The notes under the pieces are model-generated. The model ran no database searches. It saw nothing but the letters and a program-made list of their open reading frames with translations, and was not told the DNA's origin. Of a DNA stretch of 64,000 nt, positions 439 to 7,714 are shown piece after piece. Origin of the DNA: Thermoguttaceae bacterium (GTDB taxonomy: Bacteria; Planctomycetota; Planctomycetia; Pirellulales; Thermoguttaceae); NCBI GenBank assembly GCA_025060325.1, contig JANXBW010000016.1:1-64000 (forward strand). Reading direction: 5' to 3'. The translations under genes and the position numbers were made by a program. The first letter of the stretch is position 1, and the number at the start of each line of letters is the position of its first letter.

Positions 439-1641
439 TTACTGGCTTGCCGGCGGTTTGATCCCTAGGTCCTCGATCGTAAGTAGCGTTTGAAGGCTAA
501 GGCCGGCCTGAGCTAGCGCCTCCCGACCACCTTCCAATCTGTCGACAACGCCCACGACGCCGAGGACCTGCAGACCGAACTCCCAAGCTCGCTTTGCCGC
601 GGTAAGCGAAGATCCGCCCGTGGTCACCACATCTTCCACAATCACCGCTCGTTGACCGGGAGTGACCGGGCCTTCCACAAACCGCTGCGTACCGTGGCCC
701 TTTGCTTCCTTGCGGACCAAAAACCCGAGGACATTTTTTCCGCGCATGCCAGCCATTGTCACCACAGCACCCGTAATGGGATCCGCTCCGATAGCTAGCC
801 CGCCCACGGCATCCGGCAAAGTGCCCTGGGACTCAAACAGCTCAAGTATCCCGGCGCCAATGAGCCGGGCACCTTGCGGATCAAGCGTTACCTGCTTGAG
901 ATCAAGATAGTACGTTGACTTTTTGCCCGATGTTAACGTAAAGTCACCAAAGCGAAGGGCCTTTTCTTTGATAAGCGAGACAAGGGCATTCTTGTCATAA
1001 ATCCCTTGCTTCCCCCCAGTCTGTACTCCAGGAGGAGCTAATTGCGAGCCGGTGCCAGCCGCCGGTGCTTGCTCGCGAACGATGGCGCTTAGCTCCTTAA
1101 ACTCCCACGTTCCTGCTACCTCGCACCATTCAAAAAGTACAGCCTCTGTACTTGTCAGGATAGCGCCAGAGGCCTCCATCCGCCGCAGGGCTGCTTCATA
1201 ATCAACAACAAACCGCGATCCGACGGCATCAACCGGCACATAAACACGAAATCCTTCCGCGATTAAATCCAGCACGCTTTGCAGCACACACACATGGGCT
1301 TCGATACCGACTACGAGAACTTTGTGGCGATCGGCCGCCCGAAGCTCCCGAAAAATCTCTCCACATTCCCGACAGCTAAACATCAACTTCGAAGGCAGTG
1401 GGCCCAGCAAATCCCTAAGCTGCGGCACCGTTGGCCCCAAGCCCTTGGGATATTGCTCCGTGCCAAACACCGGCACCCCCAGAAGCTTAGCCGCTCGAAT
1501 TAGCCGGCCAATGTTCCACACAACCAGATGACCGCGATCAATCACTGGCAAAAGCCGCTCTTGTACATCAATGACCAGAAGTGCCGAATCGTGCCGGCAC
1601 ATTAGCTCCGGACTTCTGTGCGGGAGTGCCACTTCCGCCAT
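439..1641 (-). CDS. pyrE: Isochorismatase-family hydrolase fused to orotate phosphoribosyltransferase
   Basis: This 400-residue protein has two complete domains. Residues ~15-190 match the isochorismatase-like cysteine hydrolases: the triad positions are present as Asp25 (VIDVQE), Lys85 (PSKLMFSC) and Cys118 (EAHVC), and TEQYPKGLGPT is the family signature. Residues ~215-400 are orotate phosphoribosyltransferase, which makes orotidine monophosphate from orotate and PRPP in pyrimidine synthesis. They show the catalytic loop RKEAKGHGT, the PRPP-binding VIVEDVVTTGGSS and the family-typical IEDL end. An Ala/Gly/Pro/Gln-rich linker joins them and contains no in-frame ATG or GTG. The ATG at 1641 has GGAGG eight bases upstream. 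Stand-alone PyrE is about 180-220 residues, so each half is full length. The substrate of the hydrolase half is unknown; a role in pyrimidine metabolism is only inferred from the fusion. Confidence 0.9.
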   Translation of the reverse strand: MAEVALPHRSPELMCRHDSALLVIDVQERLLPVIDRGHLVVWNIGRLIRAAKLLGVPVFGTEQYPKGLGPTVPQLRDLLGPLPSKLMFSCRECGEIFRELRAADRHKVLVVGIEAHVCVLQSVLDLIAEGFRVYVPVDAVGSRFVVDYEAALRRMEASGAILTSTEAVLFEWCEVAGTWEFKELSAIVREQAPAAGTGSQLAPPGVQTGGKQGIYDKNALVSLIKEKALRFGDFTLTSGKKSTYYLDLKQVTLDPQGARLIGAGILELFESQGTLPDAVGGLAIGADPITGAVVTMAGMRGKNVLGFLVRKEAKGHGTQRFVEGPVTPGQRAVIVEDVVTTGGSSLTAAKRAWEFGLQVLGVVGVVDRLEGGREALAQAGLSLQTLLTIEDLGIKPPASQ

Positions 1642-1916: not shown

Positions 1917-2726
1917 TTAAGACTGTTGCTCAGAGGCAGCCTGAGCCTGCTCCCCTTGCTGCTCCGGCTTTTGTTCCTGGGTGGCAGGCTTTTCCTCGGC
2001 GGCCGGGGCCTCTGTGCTTTCAGGCTTAGGTTGCTCCTGCGGCATGGCCTGCGGCGCCGGCTCCTGCGGGGCCGCTTGCTCAGGCTGAGCAGCTGGCTGG
2101 CTGGGAGCTTCCGGAGCAGGCGCGGCTTCTTGCTTTTCCTCGGCCATCGCTGCAGGCGCTTCGGGCGCGGCCGGCGGAGCTAGTGGAGCCGCCGGTGCCT
2201 CTACTGCCGGTGCCGGCGGTGATTGCGGTGCGGGTTCCGCCCGAGGCTGCTCAGCGGGCGGAGCTTGAGCTGGCGGAGCCGGCGCCGCTTCCGGAGCCGG
2301 GGGCACTGAAGGCATAGCCCCTTGCGGGGGAACTTGCACTGCCTCGGGAGCCGGGGTCACCTCTGGCTTCTCTGGCTGAGGTGGCTGCTGGGGTTCGGCG
2401 GGTGGGGCGGGCTTTTCCTCCGTCACTGCCGGAGGCGCCTTGGGTGCCTCCGGAGCCTGTGTGGGCTCGCTCACCGGCTTCTCTTCTTTCGGAGCGGCTG
2501 GAGCAACTTCCGCCGGCGGTTGCGGTTGTTCCACAGCAGGGGGGCACGGCGGCACGCACCAAGTTGGGCAGCAGTAAACCGGACAACATGGCCGGCAACA
2601 TCGAACCACTACCGGACAGCATCGCCATCGGTATAACAGCCGGCACAAGAGTCCGGCCTGGGTGACCTCCGCCCAACCTAAGGCCACCACCGCAGCGAGC
2701 GCTAGCCACACAAGTCTTCGTCGCAT
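1917..2726 (-). CDS. Exported protein with Cys-rich segment and Pro/Ala/Glu-rich tail
   Basis: The 269-residue product starts with a signal peptide (RRRLVWLALAAVVALGWAEV). Residues ~25-65 then hold eleven cysteines, several as CC pairs (RCC, RCC, PCC, YCC), among aromatic and proline residues. The remaining ~200 residues are low-complexity Pro/Ala/Glu/Gln with no hydrophobic core. The ATG at 2726 has GGAGG seven bases upstream, supporting the start. I do not recognise a family. The layout fits a planctomycete cell-envelope protein whose cysteine block is cross-linked or binds metal and whose tail is an unstructured spacer, but that is inference. A terminator lies downstream at 1720-1760. Confidence 0.75.
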   Translation of the reverse strand: MRRRLVWLALAAVVALGWAEVTQAGLLCRLLYRWRCCPVVVRCCRPCCPVYCCPTWCVPPCPPAVEQPQPPAEVAPAAPKEEKPVSEPTQAPEAPKAPPAVTEEKPAPPAEPQQPPQPEKPEVTPAPEAVQVPPQGAMPSVPPAPEAAPAPPAQAPPAEQPRAEPAPQSPPAPAVEAPAAPLAPPAAPEAPAAMAEEKQEAAPAPEAPSQPAAQPEQAAPQEPAPQAMPQEQPKPESTEAPAAEEKPATQEQKPEQQGEQAQAASEQQS

Positions 2727-3442: not shown

Positions 3443-6400
3443 ATGTTTCGCGAGGTCGACAGCTCGGTTCATTTTCCGTCGTTGGAAGAGGAAATCCTAA
3501 AGTTTTGGAAGGAGCACCGCATCTACGATCGCTCCCTGGAGCTGCGGCGCGGTGGGCCACGATTTGTCTTCTACGAAGGTCCTCCCACGGCCAATGGGCT
3601 ACCCCATCCGGGCCACTGCCTCACCCGAGCGATAAAGGATCTTTTCCCGCGATATCGCACGATGCGGGGCTACTACTGCGAGCGAAAAGCCGGCTGGGAT
3701 ACCCACGGTCTACCGGTGGAGGTGGAGGTGTCCAAAGAGCTGGGCCTTCACTCAAAGGCTCAGATCGAAGCCTACGGCGTCGAGCCCTTTATCCACAAGT
3801 GCTTGGAAAGCGTCTTTCGCTACAAGAAGGAATGGGAGGACCTAACGGAGCGGTTGGGTTTTTGGATCCATCTTGAGGAAGCATATATCACCTGCAGTCG
3901 CGAGTATGTGGAGAGCGTATGGTGGGCCCTCAAGACGCTTTTCGACCGAGGGCTCCTCTATCAGGGATATAAAATCGTCTGGTGGTGGGCGCAGGGGGGG
4001 ACGGTGCTGTCCTCGGCCGAAGTTGGCCAGGGCTATCGCCAAGTAGCCGACCCTAGCGTTTACGTCCGTTTACCCTTGCTGGACGAACCGGATGTTGACC
4101 TCCTCATCTGGACCACTACTCCCTGGACTCTTCCCTGTAACCAGTTTGTCGCCGTCAAACCGGACCTTGAGTATGTGGTCATGAAACTAGACGGCGACGA
4201 CCGCCGGGTGATTGTGGCGGCTGCCTTGGCAGAGCAAGTAGCGGCCAAAGTTGGCAAGTCGTACACGATCGAACGCTCTTTTCTCGGCCAAGCACTGATC
4301 GGGAAGCGCTACCGGCCGCCGTTTGATTATTACTGGGGCAAAGACGGAAACCGAACGGGGCGACTGAAGAACGGCGGGGAGGAATACATTGCCTGGCGAG
4401 TGGTTGGGGCCGATTTTGTCACCATCGATACAGGCACCGGTGTCGTTCACCAAGCCCCGGCATTCGGGGAGGTTGACTACGAGGTACTTCTGACCGAGCA
4501 GGCCCGGTTCGAAGAGGGCCAAGGACCGCCGCTTATTTGCGGGGTAGCTCCCGACGGAACATTTACCACCGAGGTGCCCGACTACCAAGGGCGGTGGGTC
4601 AAGGACGCCGATCCGGACATCATCCGGGCCTTGCGGGCCAAGGGTATCCTTTTCCACGCGGAGCAATATGTTCACGAATATCCCTTCTGTTGGCGCGCGG
4701 AGGAAGATCCCCTGCTTCAGTACCCGCGAAAAAGCTGGTTTATCCGTACCCGGCAATTTCGCGAGCAAATGCTCGCCAACAACAAACTGATCAATTGGCT
4801 ACCCCCAGAGATTCGCGACGGTCGGTTTGGCAACTTTCTGGAAACAAATGTCGACTGGGCTTTATCACGGGAGCGGTGGTGGGGAACACCGCTGCCCATC
4901 TGGGTCTGCGAAGCCAGCGGTTACGCGGAGGCCATCGGCAGCTATGCCGAGCTCCTTTCCAAGCCGGATGTCCAGGGAACGGAAGTTTGGGAGCAAGCCA
5001 AGGCCCAGCGACCGGATTTGCCGGACGATCTTGTCGTCCACAAGCCGTACATCGACGCGATCACGTATGCTTCGCCTAAAGTCCCGGGAGCACGGATGCG
5101 CCGGGTGCCGGATGTGATCGACTGCTGGTTTGATTCGGGCGCCATGCCGTTTGCGCAGTGGGGCTTCCCGCACGTACCCGGCTCGGCCGAACGATTCCTG
5201 GAACAATTCCCGGCCGATTTCATTAGCGAGGCAATCGACCAGACCCGCGGATGGTTTTACAGCCTGCTGGCTATCAGCACACTTTTATTCGGTGAACATG
5301 CGGATAGATTGCCTCCGGCCGAGGCGTTTCGCCAAGGCAAGCCGGCTGCCATTCCCTGGCCGCACCCCTTCCGCAATTGCGTGGTTTTGGGGCTTATGCT
5401 TGCTGAATGGTGGGAAAGCAGCGACGGCAAGCGCCGCTTCCTAACGGAAGCGGAAGCCCGGGCCGCCTGCGGCACCCGGGTGGTGCGCAAGGTGGGCAAG
5501 ATGTCAAAACACCTCCGGAACTACCGACCTCCCCAGGAGATCTTTAATAGTTACGGGGCCGATGCCCTGCGCTGGTATTTCTTCGCCTGCCAGCCGCCGT
5601 GGACATCCATCATTTATAGCGAGCAGGCGATCAAGGACTCGATGTCCGAATTTCTCCTGCGGTTATGGAATGTTTACAGCTTCTTTGTCATCTACGCCAA
5701 TATCGATCATTTTGAGCCGGAAAAACGGATCGCGGGCCAAGCCGACCAGTTGACACCGGCCACTCTGTGCCGAGGCGAAGGCTATCGCCCCTATGCCCAG
5801 CGAAGCGAACTAGACCGCTGGATCTTGACGGAGCTAACCCGGACCACAGCTGCCGTTATCGAGGCAATGGACCGTTACGACAACTTCTCCGCCTGCCGAG
5901 CACTCCACGAGTTTGTGGACGCCCTATCCAATTGGTATGTGCGGCGGAGCCGGGGCCGGTTCTGGACGGGGGAGGCATCCCAAGATAAGACCGATGCCCA
6001 CTGGACCTTGTACGAGTGCCTCATCACCCTCTCGAAATTGGTGGCGCCTTTCATCCCCTTTACGGCAGAGGCTATCTGGCAGAACCTTGCGGTCCAAGCC
6101 TTTGGGGATCGCGTCCGCGAAAGTGTACACCTGTGCGATTATCCCCAACCACAACCCGAATATGTTGATGATGTACTTGCCGCCCGAATGGCGGTTGTTC
6201 GGGAGATTGTCTCCTTGGGCCGAAGCGCGCGAATGAGCGCTAAACTGAAGGTTCGGCAGCCGCTGCGTCAAGTGGAGGTGGTGCTGGCGGATAAGTTGCT
6301 CCGCCCCTGGCTGGAGGAACATAGTAGCCTCATCGCGGAAGAACTTAACGTGAAACAGGTGGCCTTTGTCGATCAGGCGGAAAAATATATCCGCTACGAG

Positions 6401-6949
6401 GTTCTCCCCGACTGGAAGCGTCTTGGGCCACGGCTAGGGAGGCGCTTGCCGGAACTGAAAGAGTGGTTAGCCCAGGTGGACGGCAGCCAAGTGCTCCGGC
6501 GGTTGGAAGAAAAGGGGATGCTGACGGCGGAACTTCCATCCGGTCCGGTGGAACTGAGCCGAGAGGATCTTCAAGTGCGACTTCACCCCAAGCCGGGCTG
6601 GACAGCCGCACAGGGCAGGTCGGCCGTGGTCATTCTTTCCACCGAAGTTGACGAAGCCTTGCTGGTGGAGGGGGTGGCCCGGGAGTTGGCCCATGTCGTC
6701 AACACATGCCGGCGGCAGGCGGGATGTCGCTATACGGACCGCATCCGTCTCTCCGTGGTGAGTTCAAGCGACTTGGTCAGGCAAGCCGTCCGCGATTTCC
6801 ACCACTACCTCTGCCAGGAAACCCTCGCTGTGGAGCTTACCACCGATCCCCTTGTGAGCTGCAACCCGATGCCGGCCAAGGTGGGCGATGATTCTGTCAC
6901 AATCTATCTGGAAGTAGCCGAAGGGTCCCCCGCGTGCTCGACCGGTTGA
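3443..6949 (+). CDS. ileS: Isoleucyl-tRNA synthetase, type 2 (eukaryote/archaea-like)
   Basis: Charges tRNA-Ile with isoleucine. The class I signatures are present: HPGH at residues 55-58 for HIGH, and KMSKH near residue 687 for KMSKS. The context YYCERKAGWDTHGLPVEVEV, the KMSKHLRNY form and the ~1168-residue length all point to the longer IleRS type 2 rather than the ~930-residue common bacterial type 1. Type 2 enzymes are generally insensitive to mupirocin. The editing domain (CP1) includes DFVTIDTGTGVVHQAPAFGEVDY, and the C-terminus has RELAHVVNTCRRQAGCRYTDRI, also type-2-like. I start at the ATG at 3443 because GGGAGGAAAA precedes it; the frame is open upstream to 3380 but without a ribosome site. 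A weak hairpin overlaps the stop. Confidence 0.95.
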   Translation: MFREVDSSVHFPSLEEEILKFWKEHRIYDRSLELRRGGPRFVFYEGPPTANGLPHPGHCLTRAIKDLFPRYRTMRGYYCERKAGWDTHGLPVEVEVSKELGLHSKAQIEAYGVEPFIHKCLESVFRYKKEWEDLTERLGFWIHLEEAYITCSREYVESVWWALKTLFDRGLLYQGYKIVWWWAQGGTVLSSAEVGQGYRQVADPSVYVRLPLLDEPDVDLLIWTTTPWTLPCNQFVAVKPDLEYVVMKLDGDDRRVIVAAALAEQVAAKVGKSYTIERSFLGQALIGKRYRPPFDYYWGKDGNRTGRLKNGGEEYIAWRVVGADFVTIDTGTGVVHQAPAFGEVDYEVLLTEQARFEEGQGPPLICGVAPDGTFTTEVPDYQGRWVKDADPDIIRALRAKGILFHAEQYVHEYPFCWRAEEDPLLQYPRKSWFIRTRQFREQMLANNKLINWLPPEIRDGRFGNFLETNVDWALSRERWWGTPLPIWVCEASGYAEAIGSYAELLSKPDVQGTEVWEQAKAQRPDLPDDLVVHKPYIDAITYASPKVPGARMRRVPDVIDCWFDSGAMPFAQWGFPHVPGSAERFLEQFPADFISEAIDQTRGWFYSLLAISTLLFGEHADRLPPAEAFRQGKPAAIPWPHPFRNCVVLGLMLAEWWESSDGKRRFLTEAEARAACGTRVVRKVGKMSKHLRNYRPPQEIFNSYGADALRWYFFACQPPWTSIIYSEQAIKDSMSEFLLRLWNVYSFFVIYANIDHFEPEKRIAGQADQLTPATLCRGEGYRPYAQRSELDRWILTELTRTTAAVIEAMDRYDNFSACRALHEFVDALSNWYVRRSRGRFWTGEASQDKTDAHWTLYECLITLSKLVAPFIPFTAEAIWQNLAVQAFGDRVRESVHLCDYPQPQPEYVDDVLAARMAVVREIVSLGRSARMSAKLKVRQPLRQVEVVLADKLLRPWLEEHSSLIAEELNVKQVAFVDQAEKYIRYEVLPDWKRLGPRLGRRLPELKEWLAQVDGSQVLRRLEEKGMLTAELPSGPVELSREDLQVRLHPKPGWTAAQGRSAVVILSTEVDEALLVEGVARELAHVVNTCRRQAGCRYTDRIRLSVVSSSDLVRQAVRDFHHYLCQETLAVELTTDPLVSCNPMPAKVGDDSVTIYLEVAEGSPACSTG

Positions 6950-7039: not shown

Positions 7040-7714
7040 GTGTCGATTCCTCGATTCGAACGAACACCGCTGCGACTAGCTGCCCTCATCTCCGGCCGAG
7101 GAAGAGCCTTGGAAAATCTTATCCAGCGTTCCGAAGCCGGCACACTCAATGCCCGGGTTGTGCTTGTCATGGCACCCAGCACCCGTACCCCAGGCTTACA
7201 GGTGGCCGAAAAAAGGGGCATCCCCATACGCATTGTTAGTGCCGGCGATTACGCACCCCTCATTGTGGAAGAACAAATTGCCCGGTTTAGCGACGCCGTC
7301 TTCGCCGCGTGTCAACAAGCGCAAGTGGACCTACTGGTTTTGGCGGGATTTGTGGGGCGAATCCGCGTCCCCCCGTCTTTCGCCTATCGAGTTATCTCCA
7401 CTCATCCGGCATTAACGCCGGCTTTTTCTGACCCGCATCTATTTGGCTTGCAAGTTTACGAAGCCGTGGTGGCCTATGGGGTCAAAATCACCGGCTGCAC
7501 TGTCCATTTTGTGGACGATCATCCCCACCTTGGGCCGGTGATCTTTCAACAGCCGGTGGAGGTGCGGGAACATGACACCGTCACTTCCCTTGAAGCCCGG
7601 GTATTCGCCCTGGAGTGCGATCTTTTGCCGGAAGCGATTAACCTTCTTGCTGCCAACCGATTGGTAGCCGATGGTCGTCGGGTCCGGATCCTCCCGCCAC
7701 CGGGGGCTTCGTAA
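7040..7714 (+). CDS. PurN-like formyltransferase homologue with altered active site
   Basis: The 224-residue frame aligns along its whole length with glycinamide ribonucleotide (GAR) formyltransferase, which adds the first formyl group in purine synthesis. Clear landmarks are VDLLVLAGFVGRI, STHPALTPAF and GCTVHFVDDHPHLGPVIFQQ. Key positions differ. By E. coli numbering, catalytic Asn106 is Ser, Asp144 is His and only His108 remains; in the phosphate loop, Ser12 and Asn13 are Arg and Ala (SGRGRAL instead of SGNGSNL). The GTG at 7040 follows AGGAGG, so the gene looks translated. It could be a paralogue with another function, an enzyme with shifted residues, or a decaying copy; the frame is intact. 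I therefore withhold the gene symbol. Confidence 0.8.
   Translation: MSIPRFERTPLRLAALISGRGRALENLIQRSEAGTLNARVVLVMAPSTRTPGLQVAEKRGIPIRIVSAGDYAPLIVEEQIARFSDAVFAACQQAQVDLLVLAGFVGRIRVPPSFAYRVISTHPALTPAFSDPHLFGLQVYEAVVAYGVKITGCTVHFVDDHPHLGPVIFQQPVEVREHDTVTSLEARVFALECDLLPEAINLLAANRLVADGRRVRILPPPGAS

Follow-up and report, generated by a model that had tools for sequence, protein, structure and literature searches.

The window analysed here (the whole stretch of DNA, 64,000 nucleotides) carries on its minus strand a gene that, judged from its sequence, is a genuine one-frame fusion of an isochorismatase-like cysteine hydrolase and PyrE, with both active sites kept. We consider it probable that this is a real, recent and lineage-restricted fusion, in which the two enzymes work side by side. 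Two known families are thereby found in a domain combination of which a literature search (titles and starts of abstracts) yielded no description among the matches listed. The gene, its parts and its upstream neighbour are arranged as follows.

439–1641, minus strand: fused gene, 400 codons plus a TAA stop codon, with an ATG start and GGAGG upstream of it
1057–1617, minus strand: isochorismatase-like cysteine hydrolase half, residues 9–195, MAR1/ISOC-like, with Asp25, Lys85 and Cys118
1003–1056, minus strand: linker, residues 196–213
1000–1002, minus strand: residue 214, ATT (CGG in the sister species), where separate pyrE genes have their ATG or GTG start
448–1002, minus strand: PyrE half, residues 214–398, with the R310/K311/K314/H316 loop and the PRPP loop at 333–344
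1917–2726, minus strand: upstream gene, signal-peptide-like and rich in Pro, Ala and Glu, also present 5' of the fusion in the sister species

Both halves are recognised by family models. Residues 19–166 match PF00857 (Pfam) with 98.4 bits against a cut-off of 27, which places them in the isochorismatase superfamily, and residues 223–392 match TIGR00336 (pyrE, NCBIfam) with 137.8 bits against a cut-off of 106.8, which makes them members of the PyrE family; the match of residues 254–374 to PF00156 (Pfam), at 24.2 bits, lies slightly below the cut-off of 26.3. The preliminary description of this DNA had given a single frame at 439–1641, which is correct, the strand being minus, and had named Asp25, Lys85 and Cys118 as catalytic residues, all of which are found at these positions. 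It had also held that the PyrE loops are kept, in agreement with the residues of the two loops listed above.

With regard to the PyrE half, residues 217–394 align with positions 7–179 of the 180 of 2p1z (E 3e-38), and residues 216–394 align with 5hkf (E 4e-33). In an alignment of 18 rows (the fused protein and 17 sequences from viral contigs), R310, K311, K314 and H316 are invariant, as are E336, D337, T340, T341, G342 and S344. We take the RKxxKxH loop to be catalytic and the 333–344 loop to bind PRPP, so that the fused protein keeps both loops of the known PyrE proteins (TIGR00336; 2p1z, 5hkf). In the fused form, unlike in stand-alone PyrE, a hydrolase domain forms the N-terminus and the PyrE part lacks a usual start codon. 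PyrE is likewise one domain of a bifunctional chain in UMP synthase (3qw4) and in NF004034/PRK05500. However, the partner in PyrE–PyrF fusions is the next enzyme of the same pathway, whereas the planctomycete partner is a hydrolase without a known link to it, and the OMP-decarboxylase family gene of the source genome (hereafter G000) is single and separate (PF00215, 111.2 bits; presumably pyrF). In a survey of viral contigs (IMG/VR), 137 stretches were seen to encode PyrE relatives, and 80 of these (L089–L168) are 38–46% identical to the PyrE half.

In G000, 438 bases separate the fused gene from the contig end, a position that lends itself to reading the frame as the product of a frameshift, a missing stop codon or an assembly artefact. 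However, the assembly of a sister species of the same genus (G001) contains the same frame well within a contig of 298,777 bases and with a diverged linker, which makes such an origin barely conceivable and rules out an artefact for practical purposes. The frameshift or assembly error that the preliminary description had named as able to overturn its reading therefore does not hold. The two fused proteins share 73% identity over residues 8–398, distributed very unevenly: the hydrolase halves are 76.6% identical and the PyrE halves 74.6%, but the linkers only 11.1%. The corresponding pN/pS ratios are 0.21, 0.22 and 0.89, figures that are coarse, since synonymous sites are saturated in this comparison (pS 0.80) and the linker comprises 18 codons only. 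On this coarse measure, both halves appear constrained between the two species and the linker unconstrained. The fused pair groups together in a hydrolase tree of 47 rows (support 100/99) and in a PyrE tree of 25 rows (support 99/95). In the latter, the congener G002 adjoins the pair, albeit weakly (84/75); its position is not resolved in the 47-row hydrolase tree. The fusion was retained through 27% protein divergence and could thus be useful beyond a neutral joining.

The joint between the two halves retains traces of how it may have formed. Separate pyrE genes have their start codon exactly at fused residue 214 in 23 of 23 genomes (ATG in 15, GTG in 8), a count obtained from 31 PyrE loci by removing four fused-gene rows and four duplicate rows, out of 54 genomes with a separate pyrE. 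In an alignment of 49 planctomycete hydrolase rows, in which the ends of L038, L043, L068 and L083 are overextended, separate hydrolases mostly stop soon after the residue at which the linker begins. Taken together, these facts suggest that the hydrolase stop codon was lost, that intergenic sequence became the linker, and that the former start codon of pyrE decayed along separate lines in the two species. In G000, residues 181–260 contain no in-frame ATG, GTG, TTG or CTG; the linker thus lacks ATG and GTG, as had been remarked from the window alone, and TTG and CTG as well. A check for rarer start codons detected ATC187, ATT214 and ATC224 and no others in this region. In G001, residues 191–275 include CTG199, CTG223, CTG249 and TTG242, in addition to ATA and ATT codons, with TTG242 situated inside the PyrE domain.

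The same region bears on whether PyrE is also, or only, made as a separate protein, through cleavage of the linker or through an internal start at ATT214. ATT is a rare start codon, and with the GGGGGG stretch upstream of it ATT214 could in principle act as a weak internal start in G000. Moreover, the linker, besides being unconstrained, is predicted with low confidence, with pLDDT below 50 from residue 197 in the hydrolase-guided model. This is one of two full-chain models, guided by 16 hydrolase rows and by 17 viral PyrE rows, respectively, each of which is good for its own half only; the former has block means of 77–97 over residues 11–190. An alignment combining fused proteins with hydrolase and viral PyrE rows was discarded, as the viral sequences fell on the hydrolase half. 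Production of separate PyrE nevertheless seems unlikely to us, as G001 has CGG at residue 214 and, from residue 191, no in-frame ATG, GTG or TTG before TTG242.

The preliminary description had raised the question of how often the fusion occurs and whether a separate pyrE exists beside it. Within the genus, two of three genomes are fused (G000 and G001) and G002 is split. At E 1e-84, the fusion was found in 2 of 396 genomes sampled from the order and in 1 of 392 sampled from the phylum (G000), the two samples overlapping; this threshold is a level that no separate half attained in the set of 60 genomes described below (best 8.4e-82), and a poorly conserved fusion outside the order could escape it. 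A scan of named genomes returned 36 loci, all planctomycete, and a search of these stretches for PyrE found none, hence none is fused; one of them, L035 (recorded as uncultured Thermogutta sp.), reproduces part of a G002 contig in reverse complement. In a set of 60 genomes, 51 had a hydrolase match, 56 a PyrE match and 48 both, four of the hydrolase matches being weak (35–52% identity; G011, G019, G021 and G022) and perhaps paralogues. A member of the order that is 99% complete (G044) has the hydrolase and no PyrE match at E 0.001.

Two genomes with both genes carry the fusion, and in the 46 others the genes are on different contigs (42 genomes) or on the same contig at least 140 kb apart (4 genomes). 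The hydrolase and pyrE were not seen side by side in any of these 46 relatives, among whose fragmented assemblies contig ends could hide pairs. A pre-fusion operon of the two genes has no support, given the same lack of adjacency in assemblies of which many are fragmented; the neighbourhoods of seven unfused genomes were examined. In G000, which is 95.57% complete, neither a second PyrE nor a second hydrolase of the same kind was found, the only other whole-protein match reaching 18.3 bits (E 0.002); the genome has two further PF00857 matches, of which that on contig 16 scores 92.5 bits and that on contig 22 is partial. Since no second PyrE was found there, the fused gene should carry a step essential for growth without pyrimidines.

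The hydrolase half shows the full set of catalytic residues throughout its planctomycete relatives. In the 49-row alignment, the triad is invariant among the rows with a residue at the site (D in 47 of 47, K in 48 of 48, C in 48 of 48), so that the loss of the triad in orthologues, which the preliminary description had considered as damaging to its reading, does not hold either. E114 and H116 are equally invariant (48 of 48 rows), and a FEWC motif at residues 170–173 (window 1123–1134, minus strand), present in 49 of 49 rows, adds a second invariant cysteine. By sequence and by fold, the half is nearest to the MAR1/ISOC-like group and well separated from RutB and biuret hydrolase; the name ISOC for this group, and its limits, are our own assumption. 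A fold search with the hydrolase-guided model ranked first 2b34 (MAR1 of Caenorhabditis elegans), 8rkz (Phytophthora infestans) and 8rl0 (Ustilago maydis), at 36–39% identity, followed by Leishmania MAR1 chains (30–32%), YcaC (23–25%) and RutB (18–19%), and with biuret hydrolases at 14–17%. In sequence comparisons, the five MAR1/ISOC-like PDB chains (8rl0, 2b34, 8rkz, 1x9g and 1xn4) align over residues 16–196 or nearly so (E 4e-31 to 2e-19). A GIExHVC block surrounds the nucleophile in three of them and is GIEGHAC in the two Leishmania ones. All five differ from the planctomycete rows in lacking the FEWC motif, and from the present protein in that the latter is fused to PyrE. No match was obtained to a curated model of the MAR1/ISOC-like group. 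Members of the group also occur in animals, fungi, oomycetes and trypanosomatids. To our knowledge, it has no known substrate, and the literature search (titles and abstracts) found none among the matches listed.

Other identities were rejected. RutB is absent from the 20 NCBIfam families listed at E 0.1 or better, in a library which presumably includes a RutB model, and has the low identity in the fold search given above. YcaC (NF041461) scores 40.4 bits against a cut-off of 310, in addition to its lower rank in the fold search. Nicotinamidase (NF008623, PRK11609) scores 20 bits against 174, and biuret amidohydrolase (NF050097) 12.4 bits against 370.

These comparisons bear directly on the suggestion, made in the preliminary description, that the hydrolase handles a pyrimidine-ring or N-carbamoyl intermediate. 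Under such a scheme, a pyrimidine-related or carbamoyl compound would be the substrate of the hydrolase half, which the fusion would couple to PyrE, for instance in clearing or producing an orotate-like compound. Both halves are constrained while fused, as this would lead one to expect, and hydrolases of ureidoacrylate (RutB), biuret and triuret belong to the superfamily, all of them appearing, although lower, among the structural matches, and RutB and the biuret hydrolases sharing its fold with the hydrolase half. Nicotinamidase, of the same superfamily, feeds a phosphoribosyltransferase in NAD salvage and offers a precedent by analogy. However, the five best fold matches are all MAR1/ISOC-like, RutB and biuret hydrolase fall far behind in the fold search and in the family models, the two genes are apart in the 46 unfused relatives, and the commonest same-strand neighbour of the hydrolase gene is an aminotransferase. 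We therefore consider a pyrimidine or carbamoyl role quite unlikely, and the suggestion has gained no support. Also conceivable is a functional fusion in which the hydrolase would generate or clear a small carboxylate or amide either used by PyrE or inhibitory to it, for instance in a salvage route where, as with nicotinamidase, a hydrolase precedes a phosphoribosyltransferase. We regard this as very unlikely; if it were true, the fusion would name the substrate class of an orphan enzyme family.

The neighbourhoods of the separate hydrolase genes point elsewhere. The commonest gene family beside them, a class-V aminotransferase, is found at 10 loci just downstream and on the same strand, while the next families reach 8 loci and are on the opposite strand where placed. 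Among the 38 loci with at least 1.5 kb of downstream sequence, the aminotransferase gene is directly downstream in these 10 (L040, L043, L045, L050, L053, L056, L058, L060, L062 and L064); L057, with less than 1.5 kb, also has it. In the one member scanned, the best NCBIfam model was BhcA, L-aspartate–glyoxylate aminotransferase, with 221.9 bits against a cut-off of 650. This neighbourhood points weakly to amino-group or glyoxylate chemistry, and the adjacency may help to identify what this orphan hydrolase group acts on; no lead towards pyrimidines came from the hydrolase neighbourhoods.

Human ISOC1 is taken here as a relative. It is described as peroxisomal in PMC3583843, which calls its function unknown. 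Its location, together with the gene adjacency and the BhcA match, is consistent with a hydrolase that belongs to glyoxylate or amino-group metabolism with the class-V aminotransferase, so that the join to PyrE would be meaningless for its reaction. Against this, 28 of the 38 loci are without that neighbour, no such gene was found at E 1e-40 in six of nine genomes searched, G000, G001 and G002 included, and the G041 copy (64% identical) lies about 2.1 Mb from the hydrolase. An aminotransferase link is thus possible, if somewhat doubtful; it would be compatible with the side-by-side fusion that we favour, and would narrow it.

The flanks of the fused genes provide hints as to which gene moved. 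The upstream gene, Cys/Arg-rich at first and then rich in Pro, Ala and Glu, is common to G000 and G001 (51% identity over 55 residues) and has no NCBIfam match at E 0.01. When low-complexity filtering and composition correction were switched off, the G000 copy was weakly similar to genes lying 5' of the separate hydrolase, with E 4e-5 in G032 and E 4e-4 in G024; the G001 copy shows no such similarity to these genes. As the upstream gene resembles genes 5' of the separate hydrolase, there is a slight hint of a transfer of pyrE to the hydrolase locus. Downstream of the fused gene, G000 and G001 are not clearly similar.

With regard to the fusion of two independently acting enzymes that we prefer, the following course of events can be proposed. 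In the ancestor that two species of one genus share, pyrE would have landed directly downstream of a MAR1/ISOC-like hydrolase gene. The hydrolase stop codon would then have been lost, intergenic sequence providing a linker of about 18 residues, and the old pyrE start codon would have decayed subsequently, leaving PyrE to be translated as the C-terminal domain of a single chain. Each domain most likely folds by itself, with a flexible tether between them. The PyrE half would convert orotate and PRPP into orotidine 5'-phosphate for the cell, and the hydrolase half would cut a small substrate by means of the Cys118 nucleophile, in a separate reaction. Independent action appears likeliest because the partner genes are unassociated in other genomes and the join is found in a single small lineage. 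Some coupling is conceivable, since the two halves have remained constrained while joined. The frame, the two active sites, the constraint on the halves, the lost start codon and the distribution are seen in the sequences themselves; production as a single chain, the activity of each half, the course of events and the independence of the reactions are inferred from them.

In the PyrE dimer, each subunit contributes its loop to the site of its partner. The title of 1yac describes Escherichia coli YcaC as octameric. By analogy with these two oligomeric states, the fused protein may form larger assemblies.

The system represents a clean example of how a domain fusion originates, in which close relatives let one read the separate genes, their joining and the decay of the start codon thus buried. 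Should the join be functional, it would offer a lead on the substrate of MAR1/ISOC-like hydrolases. As PyrE is often used as a selectable marker, genetics in the fused species calls for caution, for removal of pyrE also touches the hydrolase. Elsewhere in the window, a PurN-like formyltransferase gene (7040–7714, plus strand; 127.9 bits, below the cut-off of 150.1) adjoins ileS (3446–6949).
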